Shown piece after piece: positions 7,130-27,760 of a DNA stretch of 64,000 nucleotides. The translations under genes were made by a program, and so were the position numbers. This DNA comes from Mycobacterium stomatepiae. Its GTDB lineage: Bacteria; Actinomycetota; Actinomycetes; Mycobacteriales; Mycobacteriaceae. The DNA is taken from the NCBI RefSeq assembly GCF_010731715.1, contig NZ_AP022587.1:2666001-2730000 (forward strand), given 5' to 3'. Numbering within the stretch: the stretch's first letter is position 1; each line of letters begins with the position of its first letter. The notes under the pieces were generated by a model. It made no database searches. It was not told the origin of the DNA and saw only the letters and a program-made list of their open reading frames with translations.

Positions 7130-7144
7130 GGTCGCCAGGCAACC

Positions 7145-7912: not shown

Positions 7913-7918
7913 ATCCCG

Positions 7919-8836: not shown

Positions 8837-8966
8837 GGGGTCAAATTACCGACTTCGTTCGCGGATCGGACACGTCGGGCCGGTCATAGCAATTCCGGCG
8901 CTGAAAACGGTTGTGTTCAACTACTCGTCAGACTTGTTCACATTGGCAACGATCGCGATTTAAGCG

Positions 8967-9362
8967 ATGATGAGGGACGTGAAAATTGCCAAACCCGGCA
9001 CCCGTCAAATGCCGTCGGGCACCCGACTTGTGGTCGCGATGGCCGTGTCGCTTGGCGTGCTCGGCGCAGGCCTCGCCCCTGCCGCCCACGCCGACGCGAA
9101 TGACGACAAGTTCATTCAACTTCTGATTTCCGACGGCATCACCCACGAGTCCGTCCCCGCTGCCATCGGGGCAGCTCGGAAGGTCTGCGAGTACCTCGCC
9201 CAGGGAATGACGCCCAACGAAGTCGTCATCGACGTGATGAACAGCAGCAGCCTGCCCGACTATGACGCCGGCTACTTCGTCGGCGCGGCCATACGCGCCT
9301 ACTGCCCGCAGTACAAGCCGGCGCCGGAGCCGCCTGCTCCTCCACCGCCGACCGCGTCCTAA
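8967..9362 (+). CDS. Small secreted DUF732-like protein
   Basis: This 131-residue protein has a Sec signal peptide: a basic N-terminus, a hydrophobic core around residues 22-38 and cleavage after AHA. A helical domain follows, with the pattern D-x-x-F-[IL]-x2-L-x2-[DE]-G-I and two cysteines (in VCEYLA and AYCP) that probably form a disulfide. The tail is proline-rich. This is the layout of the mycobacterial DUF732 family of exported proteins of unknown function. ATG 8970 is an alternative start one codon later. The gene has no counterpart here in the M. tuberculosis order. Confidence 0.75.
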   Translation: MMRDVKIAKPGTRQMPSGTRLVVAMAVSLGVLGAGLAPAAHADANDDKFIQLLISDGITHESVPAAIGAARKVCEYLAQGMTPNEVVIDVMNSSSLPDYDAGYFVGAAIRAYCPQYKPAPEPPAPPPPTAS

Positions 9363-9461
9363 CGAAACGGCCACAAAACACCACAAAACGGCGAGCTAAA
9401 GCCGAGGTAGCCGCATCTGTGCGTACCCTTTAACAAAAGGTGAACAGATGGAGGCTTAAAA

Positions 9462-9668
9462 ATGATCACGAAGATAATAATGGGTGGTGCGATCGTTCTG
9501 GGCGCCTCGGTTGGACTCGCCGCACCCGCCAGCGCGGACGTGGTGTTCAACCAATTTTCCTGTACCTGCGGGGCACCGCCCCCATTCGCCAGCCCACTGG
9601 CCGCGGATCGCATCAACCAGGGCATCAACGACGCCTTGACCCGCGTGCTGCCGGGCGACAACCACTAA
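9462..9668 (+). CDS. Very small secreted protein, unknown function
   Basis: This 68-residue protein begins with a clear signal peptide (MITKIIMGGAIVLGASVG, cleavage likely after ASA). The mature peptide is about 43 residues with a C-T-C pair and a proline-rich centre. A GGAGG site lies about eight bases before the ATG, and an AT-rich stretch upstream may be its promoter. I recognise no family. The good ribosome site and signal peptide support a real gene. It is convergent with the sulfatase gene and the 3' ends overlap by four bases. Confidence 0.62.
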   Translation: MITKIIMGGAIVLGASVGLAAPASADVVFNQFSCTCGAPPPFASPLAADRINQGINDALTRVLPGDNH

Positions 9669-12577
9669 CCGGCCGCGCCCTGTCCGACCGCTTGGACGGC
9701 CGCGTGCTCGTGTAGCGCCTTCTCGACGTTCACCGGGACCGGCATCAGGTCGAAGACGACCTCTTTGACGGTTCCGGTGAACGCGTAGGACGCCTTGTCC
9801 TCGTAGTCACGGTCGACGACCAACCCGTTGTCGCGGCCGATATCCATACCGGCGTACGACGTGAACGCCAGGCTCACCGTCTGGGGCAGCTCCCCCTCGC
9901 CGATCAACCGATCGTCGGCCCAGAGTGTCACCCGACCACCGGAACCGACGACAGGCTGCGCGGACTCGAACAGCATCCGCACGGTGAGGTCGCCGACGGG
10001 AAGCGCCTCGGTCGATACCTGCCGATAAGTCTCGACGCCGAGGAACGAATACGTGTGGTGCAGTTTGCGCTCCTCGTCGACCCACAACGCGAACCCACCC
10101 ATGAAGTCGGCGTTCGCGACGAGCACACCGTGGGCGCCGGAGTCGGGGATGTGCAGTCGCGCCTCGATCGCGTAGGAGCGGCCGAAGATGCGCGGCACCA
10201 TGCCACGCTGAATGTTCTGCACGCCGCCGGAGAAACTGAATCGCGCGGTGGTGGGCAGCGGCGGCAGATCGCCGAACATCACCGCAAGCCCGCCGAGCAG
10301 CGGCAGAACCCGGTTGTCTTCGGCTTCCTGCCACCAAAGTCGTTGCAGCTCGGCGAGTTTGTCGGGATGCTCGGCGGCCAGGTCCTTGGCCTGCAAGAAG
10401 TCGTCGGGCAGGTAGTACAGCTCCCAGACGTCGTCGTCGGGGTTGTAGTTGCCGGGCGCGAACCTCTGCATCGTCTGCGGCGACAGGTCCCAGGGCGCCT
10501 TGTCCAGCCGGGCGCACGCCCACCAGCCGTCCTTGTAGAGGGCGCGACTGCCGAAATTCTCGAAGTACTGCACGGTGTGCCGCTCTTGCGCCGCCGCATC
10601 GTCGAACGTGTGGACGAAGCTGGTCCCGTCCATCGGCTCCTGGTCGAACCCGTCGACACTGGTCGGTTCCGGTAAACCGATGGCCTCCAACACAGTTGGC
10701 GCAATGTCGACGCAGTGCGTGAACTGCTCGCGGACCACCGCGTCGGGGCGGATCCGGCTGGGCCAGGCCACCACCAGCGGGTCGCGGGTGCCGCCGAGAT
10801 AGGCTGCCCATCTGCTTGCCCCACTGGTAAGGAGTGTTGTTGGCGTGCGCCCAGGCGCTCGCGAAGTGCGGTGCGGTGTCCTCGTCGCCGAGCGCCTCGA
10901 TGCCGCCGTATTGCTCGATGAGCTGCAATTGCTGTTCGGCGGTGAGGTCCAGGCCGTTGATGAACGTCATCTCGTTGAACGAACCGGTGTTGGTGCCCTC
11001 CATGCTTGCGCCGTTGTCGCCCCAGATGTAGAAGACCAGCGTGTTGTCGGACTCGCCGAGATCGTCGATCGCGTCCAGCAGGCGACCGACGTTCCAGTCG
11101 GCGTTTTCCGAGAAGCCCGCGAACACCTCCATCTGCCGGGCATACAGTTTGCGCTGAGTCTCCGACAAGCTGACCCACGCCGGAAAGAGATCGGGCCGCT
11201 CGGTGAGTTCGGCGTCGACGGGAATGATCCCGAGCTGCTTCTGGCGTTCAAAGGTCTTCTGCCGGTAGATATCCCAGCCCTCATCGAATTGGCCCCGGTA
11301 CTTGTCGGCCCACTCCGCAAACACGTGGTGCGGCGCGTGGTTAGCCCCGGTGGAGTAGTACATCAGCCACGGCTTGGTGGCGTTGGCGGCACGCACCGTG
11401 CGCAGCCACTGCACGGCCTTGTCGGTGAGGTCGTCGGGGAAGTAATACGGGCGGGCGTCTTGCCCCTGTGGAGAATCGGGTATGCCAAGGACGGAGTTGT
11501 CCTGGCTGATGATCGGGTCGTACTGGCCCGCCGCTCCCGACGGGAATCCCCAGAAGTGGTCGAATCCCCAACCGAGCGGCCAGTTGTCGAACGGCCCCGC
11601 CGCCCCTTGCACGTTGTCCGGGTCAAATGCCACTTACCGAAAGCGCCTGTGACATAACCATTGTCGCGCAGAATGCGCGGCAATGCGGCGCAACTGCGCG
11701 GCTTGGCCGTCGAGTAACCCGGGTAGGGGCCCGGGAATTCACAGACCGATCCGAAGCCGACCCGGTGATGGTTGCGGCCGGTCAGCAGCGCCGCACGGGT
11801 CGGCGAACACACCGCGGTGACGTGAAAACGATTGTAGGCCAAGCCGTTCTGCGCCAGCCGCGACAGGGTCGGGGTGTGGATGGCGCCGCCGAAGGTGTCC
11901 GGACCGCCGAATCCGGCATCGTCGATCAGCACGATCAGCACGTTGGGTGCACCGTCGGGTGCGGCGGCGCCGGGCACGATCGTCCAGTCACCGACCGACT
12001 CCGCCACGGTGCGGCCCACCGTGCCACCAAAACCGCGCTGGGGTATCGGCAGCCGGCTGCGGTCCGGGTTGAATTTCGCCATGGCCTCTTCCAGCGCCGC
12101 ACTGAACCCGCGTAGCGTCCAATGGCTCAGCTCCGCAGCCGATTTCATCGGAGATCCGGCCAGCGTCTGCTGCACTGCGAGCCGTTGATCACCCGGGGCG
12201 ACGACAATGATCACGGCACTGTCGGCCGCCATCGCCTCGCCGATCTTGTCGCCCAGGCCGCTCTTGAACCGCTGGTTGACGAAGGTGCCCGCCAGCGCTC
12301 CGGCCGCGGCGCCGATTGGCGCCGTGACCACCGAGACCGGCGAGAACAGGCCCGCCACCAGGCCCGCCCCGGCACCCCACTTGGCGCCGCGGCGACCCAG
12401 GCGATTGCCGATGTCGACCACGACGCGGTTGCCTTCGGCGTCCTTGCCGACCAGCAGCGCATCGCGCACCGCGACGCCGCGGTCCTTCGCGCGATCGATC
12501 AGCGTTTGAAAATCCCGACGGGCAGCATCGAGGCCCTGATATCCGGCGACGATGACCAGCGCATGCTCTTCGCTCAT
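9665..12577 (-). pseudogene. atsB: Arylsulfatase AtsB with two compensating frame breaks
   Basis: End to end the locus is 971 codons, the size of M. tuberculosis AtsB (970 residues), and all sulfatase segments are present but in two frames. An N-terminal DUF1269-like glycine-zipper domain precedes a sulfatase domain with the metal site DDAGFGG and the formylglycine motif CSPTR. At about 11620-11622 one base is missing from a C run on the coding strand (after GKWHLT). At about 10802-10803 one extra base restores the original frame. Read literally, translation stops near 11363 and yields a truncated protein. The breaks may be real or may be sequence errors in short runs. The gene starts 10 bases after the MgtA-like gene on the same strand. 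Confidence 0.8.
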
Positions 12578-12587
12578 AGCGCAGAAC

Positions 12588-15168
12588 TTATGCGGTGAAC
12601 CTGTGGAAGCGCGCGGCACGTCGACGGACGCGATGCGCGTGGTCCCGAGTGCGCCGCGGCGGTGCGACGAGGTGTATCGGCTCGGCGCAGAACATCAGTT
12701 TGGCCAGCTCGACCAGGACCAGGTAGCTGACAACGAAGGCGCCCAGCACGGCGAAGAATTGCCATGGCAACGGCGTGAAGCCAAGGTCGTGCGCCAGCGG
12801 CGAAAGCGTCAGGACGACACCGACGGCGACCACGGTGAGACCGGTCGCGGTCAGCAACCCGCTCGGCCGGCTGCGCAGAAAGGGGACCTTGCGGGTTCGA
12901 ATCGCGAAGATGATCAGCGTTTGGGTGGCAAGCGATTCCACGAACCAGCCGGTGCGAAACTCGACGGCGCCGGCGTGCAACACCCCGAGCATCAGTCCGA
13001 AAGTCAGGAAGTCGAACAGCGAGCTGATCGGACCGAAAATGAGCATGAATCGACGGATGAAGGCAAGGTTCCAGTGCGACGGTGCGTGCAGTTGCTCGTC
13101 GTCGACCCGGTCGGTCGGAATCGCCAGCTGCGAGGAGTCGTAGAGCAGATTGTTCAGCAAGATCTGACTGGGCAGCATCGGCAGAAACGGCAGCAGGGCC
13201 GAGGCCGCGGCGGCACTGAACATGTTGCCGAAGTTGCTCGACGTACCCATCAGCACGTACTTGACGGTGTTGGCGAAAATTCGCCGACCCTCGGCGACGC
13301 CGGTGGCCAGCACGCTCAGGTCCTTCTCCAGCAGCACCACGTCGGCCGCATCCTTGGCGACATCGGTGGCGCTGTCGACCGAGATCCCCACGCCTGCGGC
13401 ATGCAGGGCCAACGCATCGTTGACACCGTCGCCCAGAAAGCCGATCGACCGCCCGGTGCGCCGCAGCGAACCGATCAGGCGTGCCTTCTGCTCCGGCGAG
13501 ATGCGGGCGAAGACCGTGTGGTTTTGCGCGGCGTCGACGAACTCGTCGTCACCGAGAGCATCGAGTTCTGCCCCGGTGATGGTGCCCTTGGACGCCAAAT
13601 CGAGTTCCCGGCAGACCTTTTCGGCAACCCTCGGATTGTCACCGGTCGCGACTTTCAGCTCGATCCCGAGTTCGGCGAGCTCGGAAAGAGACTGCCGTGC
13701 CGCCGCCTTCGGCTCGTCGGCGAACACCAGAAAGCCGGCCAGCAGCAAGTCACGCTCGTCGCAGGGGGGTAATCGTGGTCAGCCCGGCCGCCGGCTTGGC
13801 GGCGACGGCGACCACGCGGCGCCCGGCGTTGAACAAATCCGCAAGAGTGTCCTGCGCGACTCGAGCCGTGGTCTGGCATTGGCTCAGCACTTGTTCGGGC
13901 GCGCCCTTGACCACCAGCATCCGCTCGCCCCCGTCATCGACCAACACCGAGACCGCCCGGCGCACATGGTCGAAGGGCAGGATCGCCACCCGGTGCACGG
14001 CGCCGCCGAGCAGCGGTTGCGAGGCTTCCCATAGCGCGGCGTCCAGTGGATTCGCACTGACACCACCGGCTTCGGGGTCGACATCGGTGGCGAGCAAGCC
14101 AAGACGCCGGACCGACTCGCTGTGCTCACCGGACGGATCGATCGTGTCGACCAACCGGATCCGGCCCTCGGTCAGCGTGCCGGTCTTGTCGGTGATCAAG
14201 ATGTCGATGTCGCCGAGGTCCTCGATGCACACCAACCGCTTGACCAGTACCTTCACCTTGGCCAGCTGCCGCGAACCGGTGGCGAGGCTGGTGCTGACCA
14301 CGGCCGGTAGCAGCTGCGGCGTGATACCGACGGCGATCGCCAGCGAGAACAGGACCGAATCGATTATCGGCTTGCGCAGTAGCAGGTTGCTGATCAAGAT
14401 GATCACCATCAGCGCGATCGCGACCCGCAGCAGCAGGTAGGAGAACCGTCGCAACCCCACCTGAAAGCCGGTCTCGGGTGGCCGCTCGTCCAAACCCGCT
14501 GCAATGCGGCCGAATTCGGCCTGACGGCCGGTTGCGAACACCACCCCGGTGCCCTCCCCGGCGCTGACGATGGTACCCATGAAGGCTAGGTCGGTGGAAT
14601 CCGCCAGGTCGGTGCCAGCCGGCACCGGTTGCGGCGATTTCTCCGAGCCGGTCGATTCCCCGGTCAAGATGCTTTCGTTGCATTCCAGGCCGCTGACCTC
14701 GATCAGCCGGATGTCGGCGGGCACCGCCTCGCCCAACGACAACCGGATCACGTCGCCGGGCACCAGCTCGGTGACCCGCAAGCTGACGAACTCCCCGTCG
14801 CGGCGGGCAACCGCCGTATGCTGCATCCCCGCATGCAACTGCGCGGCGGCGCGCTCGGCGCGATACTCGTTGACGAATCCCAGGCCGATGCTGGCGGCCA
14901 GGATCACACCGATGATCACGGCCTGCATGCTGTCGCCTAGAAAGTAGGAAACGACCGCGGTGCCGGCCAACAAGATCAGCACCGCACTGCGCAACTGCCG
15001 CCCCAACACCGCCAGCGCATTGACACGGTGGGTCCGCACCGCATTCGGGCCGTAGCGTGCCAGCCGCGCGGATGCCTCGGCGCCGGACAACCCCACGACC
15101 GAGCTGTCCAGCCAGCCCAGTACTTCATCGACGGGGGTTGCCGCGACCTGTGCGGTGCCAAATGTCAT
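12588..15168 (-). pseudogene. MgtA-type (P3B) magnesium P-type ATPase split by a frameshift
   Basis: The two halves (15168 to about 13770, and about 13760 to 12588) together encode an ~859-residue MgtA-like ATPase. The first half has the actuator TGES (SILTGES), PQLLP in M4 and the phosphorylation site DKTGTLT. The second half has GDGVNDALALHAA and the C-terminal P3B membrane block (LLNNLLYDSSQLAIP). A run of six C on the coding strand (G6 at 13764-13769) shifts the frame. Five would join them as ITP-CDERDLLLAG. ATG 15168 is preceded by a GGGAG ribosome site and lies 22 bases after the PhoU-like gene, suggesting an operon. Predicted role: Mg2+ uptake, if the frameshift is an error or is bypassed. 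Confidence 0.82.
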
Positions 15169-15190
15169 GTGCTCCCGTCCGTTCGCGTGA

Positions 15191-15856
15191 TCAGTAGGTG
15201 GATATCTCATCCTCAGCCGGAAGCGCACCGCTGCTTATGAAGATGATGCGCCGACCTATCTCGACGGCGTGGTCGGCAAAGCGCTCGTAAAAGCGACCCA
15301 GCAACACGGTTTCGACACCGACGGGAACACTGTGCTTCCATTCTCGATCGATCAGCACACCGAACAAGCCACGATACAGGTCGTCCATGGTGTCGTCTTG
15401 GTCGTGCAGAACCGCGGCTCGCCCCGGATCGCGCGACAACAATGCGGATTTTGCGCTGTCGCCCAACGCAATCGCCACCTTGGCCATGGCCGCAAAGTAC
15501 TCGCGGACTTCCGCCGGCAACACCTGCTTCGGGTAGTTGCGCGAGGCGATCTTGGCGGCGTGGACTGCCAGTGCGCCCATTCGTTCGACATCGGCGATGA
15601 TCTGTATCGAACTGAAGACCGCCCGCAATTCGCTGGCCACCGGCTGCTGCAACACAGGCAGCCCGAACGCCTCCTTTTCGACCCGAGCGCGCAATGCCAC
15701 GATTCGGTCCTGGTCGCGGATCACCTGCTCGGCGGCGACCTGGTCCGCCTCGAGAAGCGCGGCGGTCGCGCGTTTCATCGCCATGCCGGCCAGGCCACAC
15801 ATTTCACCCAGCTGCATGGTCAGATCGGCTAACTGCTGGTGATAGGCGGTGCGCAT
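15191..15856 (-). CDS. PhoU/PhoY-family regulator
   Basis: This is a 221-residue all-helical protein with the PhoY start [12 protein letters not shown] and two PhoU repeats with conserved metal-ligand helices ([11 protein letters not shown] and [15 protein letters not shown]). ATG 15856 gives the usual N-terminus, although the frame stays open upstream. PhoU proteins dampen PhoR-type kinases and phosphate import. Here the gene leads an apparent operon with a magnesium-type ATPase rather than Pst genes. In M. tuberculosis phoY1 (Rv3301c) sits between the RluA-like gene and glpD2. Here that place is empty, so this copy is either relocated or a separate paralogue. Confidence 0.86.
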
Positions 15857-16024: not shown

Positions 16025-19000
16025 GTGATCACGCGGCGTCAGTTGCCCCGCCTACCGCTGCTGGCAGCCACGTTGCGAGCCGCCGTGAGCGGTACCCAAA
16101 TGACGCTGACCGCAGGAGTTGTCGTCGCGGGCACCGCCGTGCACACCGCCCTGTCCAGTGGCGATGTCGCGGTCAGGATGGGCAAGTCGTTAGCCGATGC
16201 GGGACCGGACGTTTCGTCGCTGGTACGTGCGACCGTGGGCGTGGCGATCGAGGCGCTCGGCGGGCCGTCGTCCCGGCGTAACAGCAGCAACGGGCCGCGA
16301 CACTGGATCGAGGTGCGGGGCCTCGGCGGGGAACATCGCGCTGCGATCGCCATCGACGTAGTGGCCGCCGTCCGTGCGACACCGGGTGTGCGCACGGCGT
16401 TTCTGAACCGGCATCTCGCGCGGCTCGTGGTCACCCTGGACACCGAAGCCGACGAGGTGCCGACGACAGCCGACCTGTGCCGGATTGTCGCCGATGCCGA
16501 ACGGATTGACCGAACCCGCGGTGCGGCCGAGCACCCGGACAGCCTGCCGGGTGACGACGCGCTGCTGATGGCGCGGATGGTGGCGGTCACGGCCGCCACT
16601 GTGGGCCTTGGCCTTTCGGTCACCGGCAGCCTGCTTCGGCTGCCCAGACTGCCGGACGTGGTGGCCGTGCCGCCGACGATGGCCGACCATGTGCCGCGAC
16701 TGCGCCGCGAGCTGGAACAGCGCCTCGGACCCGAAGGCACCGACGTGCTGTTCGGTCTGGTCAACGCCGCGACCGCCGCTCTGACGCTGTCGCCGACGGC
16801 AGCGGCGGCAGAGGCCGCTACGAACGCCCTGCTGGCGGTCGAGGCGTGGACGTGCCGGTTGTCGTGGTCTCGGCTCGAACCGGCGCTGGGCGCGCAACCG
16901 GCCTTGGACGAGGAGGGGCTGATACCCCGAAGCAGCCCAAGCCCCTCCGATGGTCGCGCGGAGCGCTACGCCAACCGGATAGGCCTCGGTGGCGTCGGCG
17001 CCGGCGCCGTGGTCGGTGCGCTGTCGGGCAACCTCGACACGGCCGGTGCCGCCGCACTGGCCAGCGTTCCGAAGCCACTGCGCACGGTGCGCGAGGCGTT
17101 CGGTTGCGCGATGAGCAACGGCCTGAACATCCACCATGACGGGCTGGTGCTACATCCCCGGGCGTTGCGAACGCTCGATCGAGTCGACGCGATCATGGTC
17201 GACCCGCGCGCGTTGTACACCGACGAGTTAATGGTCAGTCGCATTCTGGGCGTGCACAATTCGGTGCGCGCCCATGCCTGGGAGGCGGTGCGTACCGCAC
17301 TCGACAGCGACGGTCTGCAGCCGGGGTGGCACCAGCTCGCCGATATCCCCGGAGCCGGAGATATCGGCCAGGCACTGATCAGCCCGGTGCGCGATCCGTT
17401 CGCCGCGGCGGTGCTCACCGAAGCGCGTCGCTCGCAGCCGCGGATCTGCTCTTTGGACGACGACGGACTTCGTTCTCTGGCAAAAGGATTCGACCAACTT
17501 TACCCTGCGGACGGGTCGATCGACCTTGCCATGGCGGCCGCCGTGGCGCAGCTGAAGGCCGAGGGCCACACCGTAACGCTGCTGACCACCTCGCAGATGC
17601 GGGCGGCGCATCGGTCAGACATCACCATCGGCGTGCTACGCGACCGGCATGCTCCGCCGTGGGACGCAGACGTGTTCGTCTCGGATCTCACCGGCGCCTG
17701 GCGGGTGCTGCACGCGCTGCCGGCCGCGCGCGCCGCCACCGACGGCGCCGTCCGGCTATCCGCGTCGGCGTCGTCGATCGGCGCGTTGATGTTGATTCCA
17801 GGTGTGCCCGGACGTAGCTCGGTGTCGGTCAACCTCGGTATGGCCGCCAGCTTGTGGTCGGGCTATCGGGCCGCGGTAAAGGTGCTCCACGACCCGCTTC
17901 CCGAGCCCGAGACCGGCCGCGAGTGGCATGCGATACCCGTCGCGGAAGTCCAGCGGCTGCTGCCCCGCCCCGCCGACCAACGCCGGACCAAAGCGTCGAA
18001 CGCGCGGCGGCAGCCGCCACCGGTTCGTGCGCTGCACGAGGCCGCCGCAACGACATTGGGAATTCTTCGCGATTTCGCCGGCGAGATGCGCGGCGACCTG
18101 TCGGATCCGATCACCCCGCTGCTGGCCACCGGAGCGCTGGCCAGTGCGTTGCTGGGCTCACCGCTGGATGCGGTCCTGGTCGGCAGTGTTCTGCTGGCCA
18201 ACGCCGCGTTGTCGGCCGAGCAGCAGCTGTACGCCGAACGCACGCTGGATCGACTGTTGGCCGTGCAGGATCCGCCCGCGCGCCGCCGGCTGGGGCCGCT
18301 GGACAGGCAGCGAAGCGAGAACGTTGCCACCCGCCGGTTACGACTCGGCGACATCATCGAAGTTCATGCCGACGAGGTGGTGCCCGCGGACGCCCGGCTG
18401 CTGGACGCATCGAACGTCGAAGTCGACGAATCCACCCTGACCGGCGAGTCATTGCCGGTGACCAAGCAGACCGAACCCACACCCGGAGCTCCGCTCGCGG
18501 AACGAACCTGCATGCTCTATGCCGGCACCACGGTGGTCGCAGGCACAGCGGTCGCCGTGGTGACGGCGGTCAGCTCCCGCTCGGAGATGCGCCGAGCGCT
18601 GGCGATGGCGCCGCGGAAGTTGCAAGAGGTCGGCCTGCAGCATCAGCTGCGCCGGATTACCGGCCGGGCATTGCCATTCAGCCTGGCCAGCGGCGGCGTG
18701 GTGGGATTGGTCAGCGTGTTGCGCGGCACCGCGCTGCGCGACGCCGCGTCCAGTGCTGTCAACCTGGTCGTCGCGGCAATTCCGGAGGGATTGCCGTTGG
18801 TGGCCACCCTGGCCCAGCTGTCCGCCGCCCGCCGGCTCACCGAGCAATCGGTTCTCGTCCGCAATCCCAACTCGATCGAGGCGCTGGCGCGGTTGGACGT
18901 GGTCTGCTTCGACAAGACCGGGACGCTGAGCGAGAACCGGCTGCGGGTCAAATCGGTACGCCCGGCGACGGGTTACCGCCCGGCACAGGAGCTGGATGCG

Positions 19001-20368
19001 GCGGTGAGCACCAGCTACGCCAGGCACACCCACCGCGTCGACCACGCCACCGACGACGCCATCAACCAAGCCGCCGACGACCCCGGACTGCGATGCGACC
19101 CCTCGCCCCCGCCGCCGCGCCCGGCCCGCGATGCGTTCCTGCCCTTCCAATCCTCCGGCCGGCCCTTCGCGGCCGCGCTCGTCGGCACCCGCCTGACGAT
19201 CAAGGGCTCACCCGAGGCGCTCACGTCGGCGTTGCGCAGCGACCCCGCCACCGGACCGCTGGCGCGGTACGTCGACGAAATGACGGCGGACGGTCTTCGG
19301 GTGCTGGCGGTGGCTGAGCGCCAACTCACCCCGCATCAAGCGGCGGCGGCCATGGTCGACCCCGAATATCTGGCGGACATGTGCAAGTCCGGCCTTACGC
19401 CGGTCGGCCTGCTCGGATTGGCGGATACTCCGCGGCCGATGGCCCGCGCGCTGCTGCAGGGGCTCTCCGAGCGCGACATCGGGGTCCGGCTGATCACCGG
19501 CGAGCGAGCTGCCGCGGTCACTTCCCATCTGGTCTTCGCCAGAATGACCCCGGAACACAAGATCGACGTGATCCAGACGCTGGAGCGCGAGGGCCTCGTG
19601 ACGGCGATGGTCGGCGACGGTGTCAACGACGCCGCCGCGATCCGCGCGGCCAGTGTCGGCATCGGAGTGGCCGCCCGCGGCAGCGACGCGGCACGCAGCG
19701 CGGCCGACGTGGTGCTGCTCGACGGGCGGATCGAAGCGCTGCTCAACGCGCTCGACGAAGGCCAGCAGCTGTGGCGGCGGGTGCACTCGGCGGTGTCGAT
19801 GCTGTTGGGCGGCAACCTCGGTGAGGCATGCTTCGCCACGATCACCGCGATCCTGACGGGACGGTCGGTGCTCAACGCTAGGCAGATGTTGCTGGTCAAC
19901 ATGCTGACCGACGCGCTGCCCGCGGCGGCGCTGGCCGTCAGCACGCAGACGGGCGCGGTCGACGCCGACCGCGACGAGGCGGCGATGTGGCGCGCAATCG
20001 GGATTCGCGGCGCATCTACCACGCTGGGCGCCACACTGGGCTGGACGGTGGCCAGTGTGACCGGCACGCCGCGGCGTGCCGCTACCGTCGGGCTGGTCGC
20101 GCTGGTCAGCGCGCAACTGGCCCAGACTTTGGTCGACTCACACGCACCGCTGGTGGTGTTGACGTCGGTCGGTTCTTTCTGCGTGCTGGTCGGGGTGGTC
20201 AGCACCCCCGGACTCAGCCAGGTGTTCGGCTGCACTACGATAGACCCGTTGGACTGGGGTCTGGGGCTGTTTTCGGCCACTGTGGCCAGTGCGTCGCCCG
20301 GGCTGTTGCGGCGGGCGTCGGAGATTTTCGGCGAGAACTCATCGGTAGACCCTGTCAGGCACGGATAG
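16025..20368 (+). CDS. Large CtpI-like cation-transporting P-type ATPase
   Basis: This 1447-residue P-type ATPase has a ~640-residue N-terminal extension before the ATPase core, which is the architecture of mycobacterial CtpI (1632 residues in M. tuberculosis). Core motifs are intact: the actuator motif TLTGESLP, the M4 motif PEGLP, the phosphorylation site DKTGTLS and the hinge GDGVNDAA. The extension shows hydrophobic segments and a partial haloacid-dehalogenase-like region lacking a clear DKTGT, consistent with a degenerate repeat. GTG 16025 is the first good start. The transported ion is unknown. It heads a co-directional group with the DUF5994-like protein and the altered ATPase at 21045. 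Confidence 0.85.
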
Positions 20369-20387: not shown

Positions 20388-21035
20388 GTGACAAATCAGC
20401 GAGCAGAAGTTCGGATCGGGTACGAAAGCCGTTCGCAGCTCAAGCCTTATCGGTCGCCGTCAGAGCATGTCGACGGGGCATGGTGGCCGCGCTCGACGAA
20501 CCTGGTCGACGAGCTACCGGAATTGGTGACGTCGGTGGCCGAGCGGCTGGGGCCCGTCGTGATGGTGGGTTACCGTCGCAACGGGTGGGCCGCGACGCCG
20601 CCCGAGGCACAGATCGCCGGGCGCCCAATCGAATTACTGAGCTTCACCAGTGACGAGCCGACCAGTGTCATCCTCATCGGGGAGGACGGCCGTCACCTCA
20701 CTCTGCATGTCATCCGGCCCGACGCCGACGCACAGGCTGCCCGAGAAGCGTTGGAGCAGGCGCGAATACCCGCGGACGCCGACGTCGCACCGGCCAGTGC
20801 CGCCATGGTTGCGCGAGGTGTTGTCGAGGTCGCGGACAAACTGGCGCGGCACGAGGGGCTCGACGACGACCGGCGAACCGCCCAGATCCGGCGGTGGTGC
20901 GAAGAGGCAGCGCAACAATTCGTCGATGCGCGGGTGCAGACCTTCGTTCCGATCCTTGTCGAACACATCGTCCACAACCGCATGATCGAATCGCGCAGTA
21001 AGGCCCCGTTGGCACACCCGGCGAGCGGCCGTTAA
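20388..21035 (+). CDS. DUF5994-like protein with C-terminal three-helix-bundle domain
   Basis: This 215-residue soluble protein shows two parts. Residues ~1-120 contain the pattern VDGAWWPRSTNLVDELP, typical of the actinobacterial DUF5994 family. Residues ~125-200 form a charged helical segment like the three-helix-bundle dimerisation domain often seen in mycobacterial stress proteins. The function is unknown. It starts 19 bases after the CtpI-like gene and ends nine bases before the altered P-type ATPase, so the three are probably one transcription unit. It could be a regulatory or stabilising partner of the pumps, which is inference. Confidence 0.7.
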   Translation: MTNQRAEVRIGYESRSQLKPYRSPSEHVDGAWWPRSTNLVDELPELVTSVAERLGPVVMVGYRRNGWAATPPEAQIAGRPIELLSFTSDEPTSVILIGEDGRHLTLHVIRPDADAQAAREALEQARIPADADVAPASAAMVARGVVEVADKLARHEGLDDDRRTAQIRRWCEEAAQQFVDARVQTFVPILVEHIVHNRMIESRSKAPLAHPASGR

Positions 21036-21044
21036 CGGGGCGCT

Positions 21045-23708
21045 ATGCGCGCTGTGGGCGAGCCCGATCCTGCGCTGCTGGATACGTCGGTCGTCGTCGA
21101 GAACCTCCGAACCGATGCCGAAACCGGACTGAACGCGCACGAGGCGGCTCGCCGACTGGTCGTCGCCGGGCCGAACGACATCGAACTTGCCGCCTCGGTA
21201 CCGGGGTGGAAAAAGATCCTCGGCCAGTTCCGTAGTCCGTTGATCTACCTGCTACTCACCGCCCTCCTTGCCTCCCTTGTGGTTTGGGCTGTCGACGGGG
21301 CCGACGAATGGCCGGTCGATGCGTTGGTGATCGGCGTGATCCTGGTGTTGAACGCCGCCCTGGGCTATGGCCAGCAGGCCCATGCCGAGCATGCCGTCGA
21401 TGCCCTGGCCCGGATGACCGCTACCACCGCCACCGTCGTCCGCGATGGGGTCGAATGCAGGGTTGCCGCACGCGAAGTGGTGCCCGGTGACGTGCTGCTG
21501 TTGGCGGAGGGCGATGCCGTGGCCGCCGACGGTCGACTGCTTTCGGCGGACGGGCTGGAGGTGCTCGAGGCCGCCCTGACCGGGGAGGGCGAACCTGTCC
21601 GTAAAGACCCACGAACCCGGGCCGAGCCGACGACGCTCGGGGAGCAGGTGAATATGGTGTTCAAGGGCACGGCGGTAGCCAAAGGTGTCGGGCGAGCGGT
21701 GGTGACAGCCACAGCGATGGGAACGCGGACGGGTCAAATCGCGAGCCTGGTGCGAACCGTCGACGACGCTGCGACGCCGCTGCAGCGCGAGATCGCCTGG
21801 GCCAGCCGTGTTCTCGGGATCGCGGTGCTGGTGCTCGGCGTCGTGGTGATCGCGAGCATTTTCTTGGTCTTCGGTATCCACAGCGTCCACGATGTGATCA
21901 CGGCGGTGCTGCTCGGCGTTTCGCTGGCCGTGGCTGCCGTTCCGGAGGGGCTGCCGGCGATCATGTCGCTCGTGCTCGCGCTCGGAACGCGGCGAATGGC
22001 CGACGCGAACGCCGTCGTCAAGGAACTCTCGTCGGCGGAGACCCTGGGATCGGCCTCGGTGGTGTGCTCCGGCAAGACCGGCACCCTCACGACCGGGGAG
22101 ATGACCATCGTCCGAGTCCTAACCCCGGTCGGGGAGGTGACGGTCACGGGAGACGGATACCGGCCCGAAGGCCGGTTCGAGCACGACGGAGCGCCGCTGC
22201 GAGAGGGTGAAAGCCTCTGGCGTCAAACGGCATTGGTGCTCGGTGACAATGGCCAGGACAGCGACGAGGTGCTTCGAGAACAGGACGGACGCCCGCTCGC
22301 CGCGGGCGATCCCGTCGAGGCGGCCTTCTCGGTCGCGCGGACGAAGTTCGGCACCCGATCGCAGCGCATGCCGGCCAGCGCGACAAAGGGCGATCCCGAC
22401 ACGGTGCTCGAGCGTTGCACATACCTGAGGATCGGTGATCGACTCGAACCGCTCGACGACTCCAGCAGGGCGACGATCCGGCGCGACGCCCAGCGGCTCA
22501 CCGGCGACGCGCTGCACGCCGTGGCGGTGGCCTGTCCGGCGCCCGACGGGCCGCTGACGTACGTGGGCATGGTCGGCATCACCGATCCTCCCCGACCGGG
22601 AGCGGCCACGGCCATCGCCGACGCCCACCGCGCCGGAGTCCGAGTCGTGATGATCACCGGCGATCAGCCACGCGCCGCGGCGCGGATCGCCCGCGAGTTG
22701 GGGATCGCAGACGACGAGTCGGCGGTATCCGGCGCCGAGATCGCCGGTCTCGACGACGATCAGCTCCGGCAAACGGTGCGCCGGCACTCGCAATACACCC
22801 AACTGGATCCCGCCCAGAAATTGCGCATCATCGCCGCGCTGCAGTCCGACCACGAAATCGTGGCGGTCACCGGGGAGGGCATCAGCGACGCGCCGGCGCT
22901 CAAATCGGCCGATATCGGCATCGCCATGGGCCGCAGCGGCACCGACGTCGCCAAGGAAGCGGCGAAGATGATCCTGGCCGACGACAACTTCGCGACGATC
23001 GTGCGGGCCATTCGCGAAGGTCGAGGCATTTTCTCGAACATCAAGAAGTCCCTGCGCTATCTGCTGTCCTCCAACATGGGGGAAGTCCTGACCGTCTTCT
23101 TCGGCGCGGTGCTGGCCGGTGCCATCGGGCTGTCGCAGGCGCACACCGTGGCACTGCCGCTGCTGGCCACCCAGATTCTGTGGATCAACCTGCTCACCGA
23201 CGGCGCACCGGCCCTGGCATTGGGCGCGGATCCGCAGACCGAAGACCTGATGAGCCAACCACCCCGCGCCGTCTCCGAGCGGGTCATCGACCGGCGAATG
23301 TGGAACAACATCATCGTGATCGGGGCGTCCGTCGCCGCGGCGACACTGTTCACCATCCACCTGTACGTCCCGGGCGGCCCGATGCCGTCGTCGATCGACA
23401 CCGCCCGCACCGCCGGCTTCACCGTGCTGGTGCTCGCCCAGCTGTTCAACACCCTCAACGCGCGCTCCGAGACGCAATCGGCGTTCCGCGGTCTCGGCGC
23501 CAACGGCTGGCTGTGGGCGGCGATCGTCTTCTCGGCCGCACTTCAGGTGGCGGTGGTGCAGCTGCCGTTCCTGAACACGGCCTTCACCACCGAGCCGCTG
23601 TCTTTGAGCCAGTGGTTGGTGTGCGTGGCCGCGTCCAGCACGGTGCTGTGGGTCAGCGAGATTCGCAAGATCATCTTGCGTCGAAACCATCAATTGTGCG
23701 GCGGCTGA
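21045..23708 (+). CDS. P2-type ATPase homologue with substituted catalytic motifs (probable pseudo-ATPase)
   Basis: The 887-residue frame is intact and carries the full P2/PMA-like layout. An N-terminal cation-ATPase domain is followed by paired membrane helices, the M4 motif PEGLP, the MITGD and DPPRPGA segments, and four to six C-terminal helices. However, three defining motifs are changed. The phosphorylation site DKTGTLT reads GKTGTLT (Gly343 replaces the aspartate that becomes phosphorylated). The actuator TGES reads TGEG (Gly182). The hinge GDGVND reads GEGISD (610-615). KGAPE also reads KGDPD. Phosphoenzyme formation should be impossible, yet no stop or frameshift is present. It may act as a regulator, partner or channel-like protein. 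It follows the DUF5994-like gene by nine bases, and its 3' end overlaps the convergent RluA-like gene by 38 bases. Confidence 0.88.
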   Translation: MRAVGEPDPALLDTSVVVENLRTDAETGLNAHEAARRLVVAGPNDIELAASVPGWKKILGQFRSPLIYLLLTALLASLVVWAVDGADEWPVDALVIGVILVLNAALGYGQQAHAEHAVDALARMTATTATVVRDGVECRVAAREVVPGDVLLLAEGDAVAADGRLLSADGLEVLEAALTGEGEPVRKDPRTRAEPTTLGEQVNMVFKGTAVAKGVGRAVVTATAMGTRTGQIASLVRTVDDAATPLQREIAWASRVLGIAVLVLGVVVIASIFLVFGIHSVHDVITAVLLGVSLAVAAVPEGLPAIMSLVLALGTRRMADANAVVKELSSAETLGSASVVCSGKTGTLTTGEMTIVRVLTPVGEVTVTGDGYRPEGRFEHDGAPLREGESLWRQTALVLGDNGQDSDEVLREQDGRPLAAGDPVEAAFSVARTKFGTRSQRMPASATKGDPDTVLERCTYLRIGDRLEPLDDSSRATIRRDAQRLTGDALHAVAVACPAPDGPLTYVGMVGITDPPRPGAATAIADAHRAGVRVVMITGDQPRAAARIARELGIADDESAVSGAEIAGLDDDQLRQTVRRHSQYTQLDPAQKLRIIAALQSDHEIVAVTGEGISDAPALKSADIGIAMGRSGTDVAKEAAKMILADDNFATIVRAIREGRGIFSNIKKSLRYLLSSNMGEVLTVFFGAVLAGAIGLSQAHTVALPLLATQILWINLLTDGAPALALGADPQTEDLMSQPPRAVSERVIDRRMWNNIIVIGASVAAATLFTIHLYVPGGPMPSSIDTARTAGFTVLVLAQLFNTLNARSETQSAFRGLGANGWLWAAIVFSAALQVAVVQLPFLNTAFTTEPLSLSQWLVCVAASSTVLWVSEIRKIILRRNHQLCGG

Positions 23709-24543
23709 GGAACATTCGTCGTATCCCGGTGAAGGGATCGTCGAACTCGATGCGCTGGGCCAGCAATCGCAGCGGGGTGCTGAAGTCGTCGGCGGCCACA
23801 TCGATCACCTTGGGGTACAACGGGTCTCCGATGATCGGCAGGCCCAGCGACGCCATGTGCACCCGCAATTGATGCGTGCGCCCGGTCCGCGGCGTCAGCC
23901 GGTAAAGACCCGGCGCGGACAGTTCGACCAACGTCTCGGCATTCGGCGCACCCGGCTCGATGACGGCTTGTAAGTGGCTGCGGCGCTTGATGATTCGATT
24001 GACGATCACCCGGGGCAGCTCCAGGTCCGGATCGACGGGCGCCCCGGCCAGATAGGTCTTGCGCACCGCGCCGCGGGCGAACAGCATCTGGTAGGCACCG
24101 CGCACCTCGCGCCGGGCGGTGAACAACAGCACCCCGGCCGTCAACCGGTCGAGCCGGTGGGCGGGGCTGAGCTCGGGCAGTCCCAGCTCCCTGCGCAGCC
24201 GCACCAACGCGGTCTGCGCGACGTGGCTGCCCCGGGGCATGGTGGCCAGAAAGTGCGGCTTGTCGACGACCACGATGTCATCGTCGCGATACAGCACCGG
24301 GATGTCGAACGGGACGGGTACCTCGTCGGGCAGGTCGCGGTAGAGGTAGACGCTGGCGCCGGCGGGCAGCACGGTCGCCGCGTCGATCACCGCGCCGTCG
24401 GCGTCGACGACCTCCCCGGACAGGACCTTGGCCCGGGCCTGTTCGCCGAACCGGGTGGTCAGCTCGGCCAGCACCGCCCCGCCGTGCAGCCGCACCCGCG
24501 CCGGCCCCAATCCGTCGCGCACCGGCAGCGGTGCGGGCCTCAC
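23671..24543 (-). CDS. RluA-family pseudouridine synthase
   Basis: This 290-residue enzyme carries the RluA active-site motif HRLDRLTAG, whose Asp is catalytic, and the downstream RTHQLRVHM segment that binds RNA. It isomerises uridine to pseudouridine in rRNA or tRNA. The exact target is unknown. It corresponds to Rv3300c. GTG 24543 was chosen because it follows the glpD2 stop by seven bases and gives the expected N-terminus, whereas the longer open frame upstream lies inside glpD2. The gene is thus probably translated from the glpD2 transcript. Confidence 0.88.
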   Translation of the reverse strand: MRPAPLPVRDGLGPARVRLHGGAVLAELTTRFGEQARAKVLSGEVVDADGAVIDAATVLPAGASVYLYRDLPDEVPVPFDIPVLYRDDDIVVVDKPHFLATMPRGSHVAQTALVRLRRELGLPELSPAHRLDRLTAGVLLFTARREVRGAYQMLFARGAVRKTYLAGAPVDPDLELPRVIVNRIIKRRSHLQAVIEPGAPNAETLVELSAPGLYRLTPRTGRTHQLRVHMASLGLPIIGDPLYPKVIDVAADDFSTPLRLLAQRIEFDDPFTGIRRMFLSRRTIDGFDAR

Positions 24544-24550
24544 CGCAGAC

Positions 24551-26281
24551 TCAATTGAGGGGAACCGGCTCGAGAATCTCGGCGCGCGCTTCGGGCGCGC
24601 TGGCCCGCAGCTCGTCGGCCGACACATCGTCGGGCTGAGCCTGCGACAGAATCTCGGCCTCCACCCGCGCGGTGTAGTTGGCGACCTCGCGATTGACGTC
24701 CCCGGCGCTCCACCCCAGCACCCGAGCCACCAGTTCGGCGACCTCGCGCGCGCAATCCACGCCGCGGTGCGGGTATTCGATGGAGATCCGCATCCGGCGG
24801 GCCAGGATGTCCTCGAGGTGCAGGGCACCCTCGGCGGCGACGGCGTACAGCGCCTCCACCAACAGGTAGCCCGGCGCATCCTTGATCGGAGTCAGCAATT
24901 CGGGACGATCGGCGGCCAGTGCCAGCACGTCGTCCATCAGCGAGCCGTAGCGATCCAGCAGGTGACGAACCCGGTACGGGTGCAGGCCCACCAGTTCGCC
25001 CACGTGCTCGACCTGGTTGATCAGCGCGAAGTAGCCGTCGGCCCCCAGCAGGCTGACCTTCTCGGTGATCGACGGCGCCACCCGGGCCGGAACGAACTGC
25101 GACGCGGCGTCGATCGCGTCGGCGGCCATCACCCGGTAGGTGGTGTATTTGCCGCCGGCGATGGCGACCAGGCCGGGCGCGGGCACCGCGACGGCGTGCT
25201 CCCGGGACAGCTTGGAGGTCTCCTCGCTCTCCCCGGCCAGCAGCGGCCGCAGCCCCGCGTACACCCCGTCGATGTCGGCATGCGTGAGCGGGGTGGCCAG
25301 CACCGTGTTGACCGTGCCGAGGATGTAGTCGATGTCGGCCTTGGTGGCCGCCGGGTGAGCCAGGTCGAGATTCCAGTCGGTGTCGGTGGTCCCGATGATC
25401 CAGTGGCCGCCCCACGGGATGATGAACATCACCGACTTCTCGGTACGCAGGATGATCGCGGCATCGCTGACGATCCGGTCCCGCGGCACCACCGCATGCA
25501 CGCCCTTGGACGCGCGCACCTGAAAACGCCCGCGCTGCTTGGACAATGCCTGGATCTCGTCGGTCCACACCCCGGTCGCGTTGACCACGACGTGCCCGCG
25601 CACCTCGGTCACCGAGCCGTCCTCGGAGTCGCGCACCCGCACCCCGATCACCCGGTCGCCCTCCCGCAGCAACGCGACCGCCTGGGTGGAGCACCGCACC
25701 ACCGCACCGTAGTGCGCGGCGGTGCGCGCGACCGTCATCGTGTGCCTGGCGTCGTCGACGACGGTGTCGTAGTAGCGGATCCCGCCGATCAGCGAGCTGC
25801 GCTTCAGGCCCGGGCTCAACCGCAGCGCCCCGGCGCGGGTCAAATGCTTTTGTGCGGGAACGGATTTCGCGCCGCCCAGGCTGTCGTACAGGAAGATGCC
25901 CGCCGCGGTGTAGGGCCGCTCCCACCAGCGGTGGGTCAGCGGGAACAGGAACGGCAACGGCTTGACCAGATGCGGCGCCAACCTGGTCAGCGACAGCTCG
26001 CGCTCGTGCAGCGCCTCGCGCACCAGCCCGAACTCCAGCTGTTCGAGGTAGCGCAGTCCGCCGTGGAACATCTTCGACGAGCGGCTCGACGTTCCCGAGG
26101 CGAAGTCGCGCGCCTCCACCAGGGCGACCTTGAGCCCGCGGGTGGCGGCGTCCAGCGCACACCCGGAGCCCACCACCCCGCCGCCGATGACGACCACGTC
26201 GAACTGCTCACTGCCCAGGCGCTCCCAAGCCGCCGCGCGTTGCTGCGGTCCCAAGTTGGAAACCGGATCATTCACGACCAA
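24551..26281 (-). CDS. glpD2: Aerobic FAD-dependent glycerol-3-phosphate dehydrogenase
   Basis: This 576-residue enzyme oxidises glycerol-3-phosphate to dihydroxyacetone phosphate at the inner membrane and feeds electrons to the quinone pool. The N-terminal FAD motif GGGVVGSGCALDAA is complete. The body contains the GlpD signatures FHGGLRYLEQLE and IPWGGHWIIGTTDTDW. The helical C-terminal domain is present. Length and position match Rv3302c. Upstream, lpdA ends 72 bases away on the same strand, as in M. tuberculosis. The RluA-like gene follows closely. Confidence 0.95.
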   Translation of the reverse strand: MVVNDPVSNLGPQQRAAAWERLGSEQFDVVVIGGGVVGSGCALDAATRGLKVALVEARDFASGTSSRSSKMFHGGLRYLEQLEFGLVREALHERELSLTRLAPHLVKPLPFLFPLTHRWWERPYTAAGIFLYDSLGGAKSVPAQKHLTRAGALRLSPGLKRSSLIGGIRYYDTVVDDARHTMTVARTAAHYGAVVRCSTQAVALLREGDRVIGVRVRDSEDGSVTEVRGHVVVNATGVWTDEIQALSKQRGRFQVRASKGVHAVVPRDRIVSDAAIILRTEKSVMFIIPWGGHWIIGTTDTDWNLDLAHPAATKADIDYILGTVNTVLATPLTHADIDGVYAGLRPLLAGESEETSKLSREHAVAVPAPGLVAIAGGKYTTYRVMAADAIDAASQFVPARVAPSITEKVSLLGADGYFALINQVEHVGELVGLHPYRVRHLLDRYGSLMDDVLALAADRPELLTPIKDAPGYLLVEALYAVAAEGALHLEDILARRMRISIEYPHRGVDCAREVAELVARVLGWSAGDVNREVANYTARVEAEILSQAQPDDVSADELRASAPEARAEILEPVPLN

Positions 26282-26353
26282 TGGCTCCTCGGTTACTCGT
26301 CAGTAGAGGGTGCTCCACCAAGGCTAGTTCGTCGGGCATTTCCGGGCCTGCCG

Positions 26354-27760
26354 TCAGTCCAGATCGTCGTGCGCCATCAGGCGACGAGCGGCCTCGGTGA
26401 TCGAGCCGGACAGCGACGGGTAGACGGCCAGCGTCTGCGCCAGGTGGTTCACGGTCAGCCGGGTCTGCACGGCCATGGCGATCGGCAAGATCAGCTCCGA
26501 GGCAATCGGTGCCACCACCACGCCGCCGATCACCACGCCGGTCGCGGGGCGGCAGAACAGCTTCACGAACCCGTGCTGCAGTCCGGACATCTTGGCGCGG
26601 GCGTTGGTCCGCAGCGGCAACATGATCGTCCGGGCCTGCACCGTCCCGGCGTCGATGGCGGACTGCGGGACTCCCACCGCGGCCAGCTCCGGCCGGGTGA
26701 ATACCGCGGCGGCGACGGTGCGCAACCGGATGGGGGTGACGGCCTCACCGAGCGCGTGCCACATCGCGATGCGGCCTTGCATGGCGGCGACCGAGGCCAG
26801 CGGCAGCAGCCCGGTGCAGTCACCGGCGGCATAGATGTTGGACACCTGCGTGCGGGACACCCGATCCACCTTCAGGTAGTTGCCCGGCCCCAGCTCGATG
26901 CCGACGCGTTCCAGGCCGAGACCGCTGGTGTTGGGCACCGACCCGATCGTCATCAACGCGTGGCTGCCCTCGACGGTTCGGCCGTCGGCCAGCTTGACCA
27001 GCACGCCGGACTCGGTGCGGGTCACCGAGTCAGCGCGGGCGTTCTTGACGAGCTTGACGCCACGCTCGGCGAAGATGCGCTCCAGCACCTCGGCGGCATC
27101 GGCGTCCTCGTACGGCAGGATCTGGTCGCGGCTGGCGACGACCGTCACGTCGACGCCCAGTTCGGTGTAGGCATGCACGAACTCGGCACCGGTGACACCG
27201 GAGCCCACCACGATCAGGTGGTCGGGTAGCGAATCGAGGTCGTAAAGCTGTCGCCAAGTCAGGATGCGTTCGCCGTCGGGCCGCGCGGTCGCCAGCTCGC
27301 GGGGGCTGGCACCGGTGGCGATCAGCACCACATCGGCGTCGTAGGTGCTGGTGGCACCATCCGGCGCGGTGGCCTGCACACGATGGGTGGCGAGACCGGG
27401 GGCGTTGTCCACCAACTCGCCCTTGCCCTCAACCACGTCGACCCCGGCGCTGAGCAGCTGTGCCTTGATGTCGGCGGACTGCTCGGCGGCGAGCCGCTTG
27501 ACGCGCTGGTGGATGTCGGGCAGCGAGATCTTGGCGGCTTCGATGTCGACGTGGAAGCCGAGACTGGGCCCACGCCGCAGTTCGGTGCGCACCCCGGTGG
27601 AGGCGATGAACGCCTTCGACGGCACCACGTCGTACAACACTGCGGCGCCGCCAATGCCGTTAGAGTCGATGACGGTGACGTGGGCGTCACGCGCCGCTGC
27701 CGTGAGCGCCGCCTCGTAACCGGCAGGCCCTCCCCCGATGATCACGATGCGGGTCACCAC
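26354..27760 (-). CDS. lpdA: LpdA flavoprotein disulfide-reductase homologue (quinone reductase)
   Basis: This 468-residue two-dinucleotide-binding-domain flavoprotein has an FAD motif GGGPAGYEAA, an NAD(P) motif GSGVTGAEFVHAY and a second FAD motif YAAGDCTG. The usual redox-active C-x4-C pair after the first domain is absent: the region reads GGAAVLYDVVPSK. This is the known hallmark of mycobacterial LpdA (Rv3303c), which is not a lipoamide dehydrogenase but an NAD(P)H:quinone reductase linked to oxidative-stress resistance. It probably precedes glpD2 in one transcript. Confidence 0.93.
   Translation of the reverse strand: MVTRIVIIGGGPAGYEAALTAAARDAHVTVIDSNGIGGAAVLYDVVPSKAFIASTGVRTELRRGPSLGFHVDIEAAKISLPDIHQRVKRLAAEQSADIKAQLLSAGVDVVEGKGELVDNAPGLATHRVQATAPDGATSTYDADVVLIATGASPRELATARPDGERILTWRQLYDLDSLPDHLIVVGSGVTGAEFVHAYTELGVDVTVVASRDQILPYEDADAAEVLERIFAERGVKLVKNARADSVTRTESGVLVKLADGRTVEGSHALMTIGSVPNTSGLGLERVGIELGPGNYLKVDRVSRTQVSNIYAAGDCTGLLPLASVAAMQGRIAMWHALGEAVTPIRLRTVAAAVFTRPELAAVGVPQSAIDAGTVQARTIMLPLRTNARAKMSGLQHGFVKLFCRPATGVVIGGVVVAPIASELILPIAMAVQTRLTVNHLAQTLAVYPSLSGSITEAARRLMAHDDLD

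Follow-up and report, generated by a model that had tools for sequence, protein, structure and literature searches.

The pseudo-pump gene and its motifs

The stretch of Mycobacterium stomatepiae DNA analyzed here, called the window, covers 64,000 nucleotides (positions 2,666,001 to 2,730,000 of contig NZ_AP022587.1). At 21045..23708 on the plus strand it carries a gene with an ATG start and no internal stops, whose 887-residue product is a P2A-type (SERCA/PMR1-type) relative of the P-type ATPases without their phosphorylated aspartate; it is referred to below as the pseudo-pump. The uninterrupted 887-codon open reading frame agrees with the first-pass annotation, which had been made from the sequence alone. 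Four Pfam domains scored above cut-off (E1-E2_ATPase, HAD hydrolase, Cation_ATPase_N and Cation_ATPase_C), and a TIGR01494 score of 254.9 bits against a cut-off of 62.3 places the protein in the P-type ATPase superfamily by descent. Its scores fell below the NCBIfam equivalog cut-offs for PMR1 (TIGR01522, 579.9 versus 798.3 bits) and SERCA (TIGR01116, 570.9 versus 703.4 bits), which says little alone because the canonical bacterial relatives were unscored.

Homologues were collected by a protein search in which the 7999 candidates with the most words in common were scored. The best 120 of 7725 proteins, the window protein included, were listed and aligned; 65 of them have GKTGT and 55 have DKTGT. 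The window protein and 60 homologues were taken as a core of 61 of the 65 GKTGT proteins, leaving out P0062, P0065, P0070 and P0074. A second search, started from the early-branching GKTGT protein P0070, added 50 proteins and brought the set to 170. Core members are at least 71% identical to the window protein and include those of Mycobacterium ahvazicum, nebraskense, seoulense, paraseoulense, europaeum and mantenii.

The catalytic motifs of the window protein, all encoded on the plus strand, are altered to different degrees. GKTGT replaces DKTGT at residues 343-347 (22071..22085), with Gly343 encoded by GGC at 22071-22073, and GEGISD replaces GDGVND at residues 610-615 (22872..22889), introducing Glu611 and Ser614. 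In the actuator (A) domain, residues 179-183 (21579..21593) read TGEGE where canonical relatives have TGESE; Ser182 is changed to Gly and Glu181 is kept. The first-pass annotation had read the motifs TGEG, GKTGT, KGDPD and GEGISD and an intact PEGLP, all as found here. Its conclusion that all three catalytic signatures are replaced stands for GKTGT and GEGISD but not for the catalytic Glu of TGES, since only the adjoining Ser is changed. Similarly, KGDPD does occur in place of KGAPE (residues 448-452), but its lysine, Lys448, the equivalent of SERCA Lys515, is still there.

The same annotation took the rest of a P2 pump to be intact, and this had to be revised, as further losses affect nucleotide binding. 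The canonical ATP-binding loop (PFTSERK...) of the nucleotide-binding (N) domain is missing at 22353..22382. His491 (22515..22517) lies at the position of SERCA Arg560, which is His in 57 of 61 core proteins and Arg in all 103 canonical relatives. Gln586 (22800..22802) lies at the position of SERCA Arg678, where the change from Arg to Gln tracks Gly343 completely: it is found in 67 of 67 GKTGT proteins and in none of 103 DKTGT proteins, which all have Arg. We take SERCA Phe487, Lys492, Lys515, Arg560 and Arg678 to be ATP contacts. What an active P-type ATPase requires is thus lacking at the phosphorylatable Asp, the Mg2+-binding Asp, the N-domain nucleotide contacts and Arg678. The frame of the phosphorylation (P) domain is retained, namely KTGTL, TGD, Lys592 and Asp615.

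The cation-binding residues of the membrane domain are all present. The stretch VAAVPEGLP in membrane segment M4 (residues 296-304, 21930..21956) is intact, with Glu301 equivalent to SERCA Glu309; so are SSNMGE in M5 (23067..23084; Asn677 and Glu680 for SERCA Asn768 and Glu771), NLLTDG in M6 (23187..23204; Asn715, Thr718 and Asp719 for SERCA Asn796, Thr799 and Asp800) and RSETQ in M8 (23463..23477; Glu809 for SERCA Glu908). On what we take to be the SERCA ligand list for sites I and II, the complete set is Val296, Ala297, Val299, Glu301, Asn677, Glu680, Asn715, Thr718, Asp719 and Glu809.

A structural model of the window protein had a mean predicted local distance difference test score (pLDDT) of 70.4 and a predicted template modelling (TM) score of 0.63, and its conformational state is not readable. 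Foldseek gave SERCA and SPCA1 in many states as best matches, with TM scores of about 0.6-0.7. When the canonical protein P0060 was folded as a control from these 71 sequences, it had a pLDDT of 68.9 and the same weak loops; its model has an N-domain strand in the ATP loop (residues 460-467) that is predicted to be absent from the window protein. The best sequence match in the PDB was 6zhf (E 7.2e-138), and the best relatives there were Listeria lmo0841, SPCA1 and SERCA.

Conservation, origin and selection

The motif loss is neither a sequencing error nor private decay, but is shared across a clade. Gly343 and Glu611 are found in 61 of 61 core proteins and Asp at both positions in 103 of 103 canonical relatives; orthologues with canonical motifs, which the first-pass annotation had held would undo its reading, were not what the core contained. 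Of the residues whose conservation that annotation wished to see, Gly182 and Ser614 were each seen in 1 of 61 proteins, which makes them wholly or almost private to the window copy. When DNA was compared, codon 343 was GGC and codon 611 was GAG in 18 of 18 genomes from different assemblies. An error at the motif codons, such as a misread GAC at 22071-22073, is refuted by this agreement and has next to no probability.

Among the 170 proteins, Asp343 is combined with Asp611 in 103, Gly343 with Asp611 in 3, Gly343 with Glu611 in 64 and Asp343 with Glu611 in none, from which we infer that Gly343 arose before Glu611. The occurrence of Glu611 only in proteins without the Asp (64 of 67, and 0 of 103 canonical) could mean that it is compensatory, and SGKTGTL is invariant across the 61 core proteins. 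Both observations would suit an ATPase that works by an altered route, with Glu611 or a Ser or Thr of SGKTGT taking the phosphoryl group. This is nevertheless highly improbable: most members have lost the Phe487-Lys492 loop and the equivalents of Arg678 and Arg560, and we are aware of no P-type ATPase with a nucleophile of this kind.

Other losses vary within the core. The ATP-binding loop is deleted in 52 of 61 proteins, the window protein among them; the window copy is not among the 52 of 61 that have lost the Glu of TGES; and the Lys515 equivalent is lost in 44 of 61. The idea of a high-affinity ATP sensor was dropped because the ATP-binding loop is missing. In the membrane domain, Glu301, Asn677, Glu680, Asn715, Thr718 and Asp719 are present in 61 of 61, and position 809 is Glu in 55 and Asp in 6.

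The distribution of change was examined against a baseline of 388 columns conserved to 98% or more among the 55 canonical proteins; 51 of these columns have a changed consensus in the core. The N domain is changed in 11 of 42 columns and the membrane segments in 11 of 165 (p = 0.0009); the columns that the window protein lacks, almost all of which belong to the ATP loop, are changed in 14 of 14. The corresponding counts are 12 of 107 for the P domain, 2 of 49 for the A domain and 1 of 11 for the N-terminal piece, and the A and P domains together (14 of 156) are not distinct from the membrane segments (p = 0.53). A comparison of membrane (11 of 165) with all cytosolic columns (39 of 212) gives p = 0.0007, but this rests on the 14 window-absent columns and becomes p = 0.077 without them. 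Given the excess in the N domain and ATP loop, and A and P domains no more changed than the membrane, erosion is centred on nucleotide binding and a few catalytic residues.

The history of the GKTGT form was explored with several trees. A tree of 56 of the 120 rows, built on all columns, puts the GKTGT rows on one side of a single branch with a support of 73. When the trait columns were removed, the best tree of 41 rows required three changes, the starred branches forced two, and 0% of 200 bootstrap trees had one; a tree of 30 rows required two changes, with a single clade unrejected (p-AU 0.336). Trees of thirds of the protein (25 rows) required three, two and two changes. Thus the pair of changes may have arisen more than once, the best trait-stripped trees placing it at two to three points; a single origin, independent origins of this pair, reversal and recombination would each be compatible with these trees.

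Selection was estimated from the ratio of nonsynonymous to synonymous substitutions (dN/dS) by pairwise Nei-Gojobori comparison, with branch values from three-taxon differences over 11 outgroups; these are simple counts rather than codon-model estimates. The window gene compared with 17 core orthologues gave dN/dS of 0.20-0.30 at synonymous distances below 0.8; the highest value, 0.303, is that of L138, whose first part is out of frame. On the window branch dN/dS was 0.23-0.25 for the pseudo-pump and 0.20-0.24 for the neighbouring CtpI-like gene described below. The pseudo-pump gene is under purifying selection. These values disfavour neutral decay and bear out the first-pass annotation in proposing a selected pseudo-pump, the ratio not being near the 1 of relaxed selection.

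The lowest dN/dS of the regions compared was that of residues 323-356 around GKTGT (0.06 over all core pairs, 0.03 versus the window). This is more telling than the invariance of Gly343 and Glu611, which is unexceptional alone because 331 of 887 residues are invariant in the 53 full-length core proteins. Compared with one canonical pair, the P1 region is tighter in the core (0.06 versus 0.10), and two regions are somewhat looser: the N domain, the loosest long region at a dN/dS of about 0.4 (0.39 versus 0.34), and M5-M10 (0.19 versus 0.15).

The operon and neighbouring ATPases

The pseudo-pump gene is the third of three on the plus strand. The first, at 16025..20368, encodes a giant CtpI-like P-type ATPase that has kept TGES, DKTGT, KGSPE and GDGVND; the second, at 20388..21035, encodes a DUF5994 protein of 215 residues whose C-terminal part matches the three-helix bundle dimerisation domain NF046112 at 35.7 bits (cut-off 25). 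The DUF5994 gene lies 19 bp after the CtpI gene and 9 bp before that of the pseudo-pump. In a survey of 297 genomes of the genus, sampled from a larger group, the pseudo-pump (hits at E <1e-100 and at least 73% identity) was found in 16, which with the named genomes L048 and L050 makes 18. The order CtpI-like, DUF5994, pseudo-pump on one strand was seen in 18 of 18, window included, with CtpI cut by a contig end in L133 and DUF5994 in two frames in L137 (9008-9609). The first-pass annotation had suggested that the pseudo-pump might regulate or partner the adjacent CtpI-like or MgtA-like ATPases. For CtpI this agrees, as a matter of genetics only, with a linkage seen in 18 of 18 genomes. Linkage to the MgtA-like gene was not upheld, and that gene is disfavoured as a partner: in L127, L128 and L138, the closest relatives retrieved, it does not stand between phoU and the gene that follows, and in the window it lies in two frames.

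Of the 15 neighbourhoods L127-L141, 14 have a divergent phoU-type gene upstream of CtpI; in the remaining one the contig ends. The motif of the CtpI-type frame is DKTGT in the window as well as in each of the 20 neighbourhoods L127-L141 and L047-L051 (three of these being the same genome twice). In G184 a DKTGT relative is divergent from a CtpI of 64% identity, and in the metagenome-assembled genome WOFB04 (L052) a GKTGT protein still with GDGVND is divergent from a CtpI of 66% identity. These divergent arrangements suggest that the CtpI neighbourhood is older than the operon.

With a 300-residue query, CtpI orthologues of at least 74% identity were found in 27 of 297 genomes, 16 of which have the pseudo-pump. 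In the stretches fetched from the other 11, tblastn found no pseudo-pump remnant; DUF5994 was found in 7 of these 11, the L164 stretch ending soon after it. On a CtpI tree of 28 rows, from which L133 was left out, presence and absence of the pseudo-pump require two changes, one pseudo-pump clade and a nested absence in L155. The CtpI rows of this 28-row comparison were chosen by the motif CFDKTGTL and are uninformative on DKTGT itself.

Beyond the operon, 80 named genome loci found with the pseudo-pump protein contain 91 P-type motifs, 85 with Asp and 6 with Gly, all 6 mycobacterial. Every other P-type place in the window's genome at which a motif could be seen has DKTGT, in 15 of the 16 loci L002-L017 (several represent one gene); L016 showed no motif. 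No second ATPase of at least 50% identity was listed in the 16 genus-draw genomes with the pseudo-pump, three candidates being scored per genome at E <1e-100, and no plasmid carriage was seen, as none of 136 matching plasmid records had a match of at least 60% identity.

Several further features were noted in these neighbourhoods. On the minus strand of the window, at 12588-13748 and 13750-15228, a P-type ATPase with Cation_ATPase_N, E1-E2 and C-terminal Pfam domains is split over two frames; it is one open frame in L047 (358-3273) and L131 (15099-17798) and absent there in L127, L128 and L138. The N-terminal half of CtpI (16025-17944, plus strand) contains a conserved HAD-like stretch, IDAIMxDPRALYTDEL; neither a HAD-like half nor a second P-type unit there was supported when a thin profile was compared with hhalign. 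In M. europaeum (L047, 14662-17034, plus strand) the pseudo-pump is followed downstream by a P1B-type ATPase with a C-terminal hemerythrin domain; at about this place other neighbourhoods show a weak CtpI-like match only. A long reading frame at 24428-27229 (plus strand) with tblastn matches in relatives is probably the shadow of a GlpD-like FAD oxidoreductase gene (24551-26281, minus strand), and a 466-residue frame downstream in relatives was rejected as the shadow of a glutamate-synthase-type gene on the opposite strand. In L138 (G075, 3171-10903) CtpI and the pseudo-pump are each in two frames, and the operon thus seems to break down there. No DosR-type dormancy box was found in the window at up to 3 mismatches to the consensus.

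A putative cation site without ATP-driven turnover

The reading that best fits these sequences is a dead pump that is kept by selection with its ion site intact, to which we would give a probability of about 0.9. Without the Asp no phosphoenzyme is expected, as illustrated by the D427N, D351N and D369N examples quoted in one report (PMC13322241). Since the phosphorylated Asp is gone, P-type biochemistry implies no ATP-driven pumping by the normal cycle. A divalent cation, probably Ca2+ or Mn2+, would still be bound at the old transport site; its occupancy would shift the cytosolic domains, and the partners encoded in the same operon (DUF5994 protein and CtpI-like ATPase) would read that shift, so that cation binding without turnover could act as a signal or hold for them. 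Such a role as a sensor or operon partner, that is, a cation-responsive accessory or regulatory subunit, is proposed tentatively, at slightly under even chances. Retention of the A and P domains as well as the membrane part would fit a protein whose cytosolic domains move or bind something.

The main rival to this role is a passive cation pathway, in which gates uncoupled from ATP would leave a slow channel, uniporter or exchanger for Ca2+ or Mn2+. CFTR, of the ABC type, became a channel, and intact cation ligands and helices beside an eroded nucleotide-binding domain are the pattern expected if transport outlives ATP use. However, the A and P domains are as well conserved as the membrane part, beyond what a pure pore would require, and no path-opening change of a gate residue was found, although no close search was made for one. 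We consider this pathway rather unlikely, at about half the weight of the sensor role.

Several observations weigh against a selected, cation-responsive partner of CtpI. The ten cation ligands are all kept (10 of 10), but the rest of the membrane domain is kept in 144 of 155 columns, i.e. no worse, and ion binding as the selected property is therefore unproven. The window branch is slightly looser than the sister branches L127 (0.17) and L128 (0.19); that of L138 (0.34) is inflated. In the A domain, the clade (0.20-0.27; 0.27 for the core) is under looser constraint than one canonical pair (0.13). One of 18 pseudo-pump copies, that of L138, is in two frames. With the pseudo-pump missing from 11 of 27 CtpI-bearing genomes, CtpI does not need it everywhere. 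Finally, the window CtpI lacks 34 P-domain residues after LITG, in frame, at 19490-19516, and the presumed client may thus be inactive in this genome; LITGD is read through in 27 of 28 CtpI rows, the window being the exception, and the five rows displayed in full have the segment. Because CtpI is often without the pseudo-pump and is damaged in the window, it could be the DUF5994 protein, and not CtpI, that serves as the partner, or the pseudo-pump could act alone as a passive pathway.

Some of these points could also describe an inactive relic in slow decay, carried along by an operon in which only the other genes matter. The motif loss is stepwise, the N domain is the loosest long region, the L138 copy is frameshifted, two neighbouring ATPase genes of the window are damaged, and there are the 11 CtpI-bearing genomes without the pseudo-pump. 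The dN/dS of the window branch (0.23-0.25) and against 17 orthologues (0.20-0.30), the 331 invariant residues and the single frame of 17 of 18 copies speak against decay, and make a relic improbable, more so than the passive pathway. Taken together, a whole P-type family may have given up ATP-driven phosphorylation and kept its cation site under selection, becoming a cation receptor, an accessory subunit or a passive pathway, with Asp351 to Gly and Arg678 to Gln (SERCA numbering) as an opening step that was possibly repeated; we offer this broader view with somewhat less than even confidence.

P-type ATPases are named for their phosphorylated aspartate, and here is a selected clade without it. 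With members at several stages of loss, the clade forms a natural series on a pump scaffold without its engine, and raises two questions: can ion occupancy alone move the cytosolic domains, and can a pump turn into a receptor or a channel? The pseudo-pump is also a possible handle on the uncharacterised CtpI-type giants that share its operon.

In the literature searched, with subscription journals mostly outside it, we found no published description of a P-type pseudo-pump or of a P-type ATPase without its Asp. The pseudo-pump resembles the P2A Ca2+-ATPases (SERCA, SPCA/PMR1 and Listeria lmo0841/LMCA1) in fold, Pfam order, KTGTL frame, PEGLP and the M5/M6 ligands, but differs from them in having no phosphorylatable Asp, in having Glu for the Mg2+ Asp, and in the loss of the ATP loop and arginines. 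The eukaryotic protein ERMA, which we take to be TMEM94, offers a second comparison. ERMA is a Mg2+ transporter of the endoplasmic reticulum that has the P-type fold and has lost TGES and GDGVND, a likeness to the pseudo-pump, but it retains the Asp (D427 of DKQGI), and D427N abolishes transport (PMC13322241); the pseudo-pump, in contrast, has lost the Asp itself, and yet the window copy keeps TGE. The operon neighbour, of the CtpI/CtpH type (FUPA24), is likewise an uncharacterised mycobacterial P-type ATPase (PMC3573892, PMC10654040), but unlike the pseudo-pump CtpI retains DKTGT, TGES and GDGVND. Finally, bacterial pseudo-receiver domains and other pseudoenzymes have similarly lost phosphotransfer residues and kept the fold (PMC12632262); these pseudo-receivers are signalling domains, whereas the pseudo-pump is built on the ten-helix scaffold of an ion pump.

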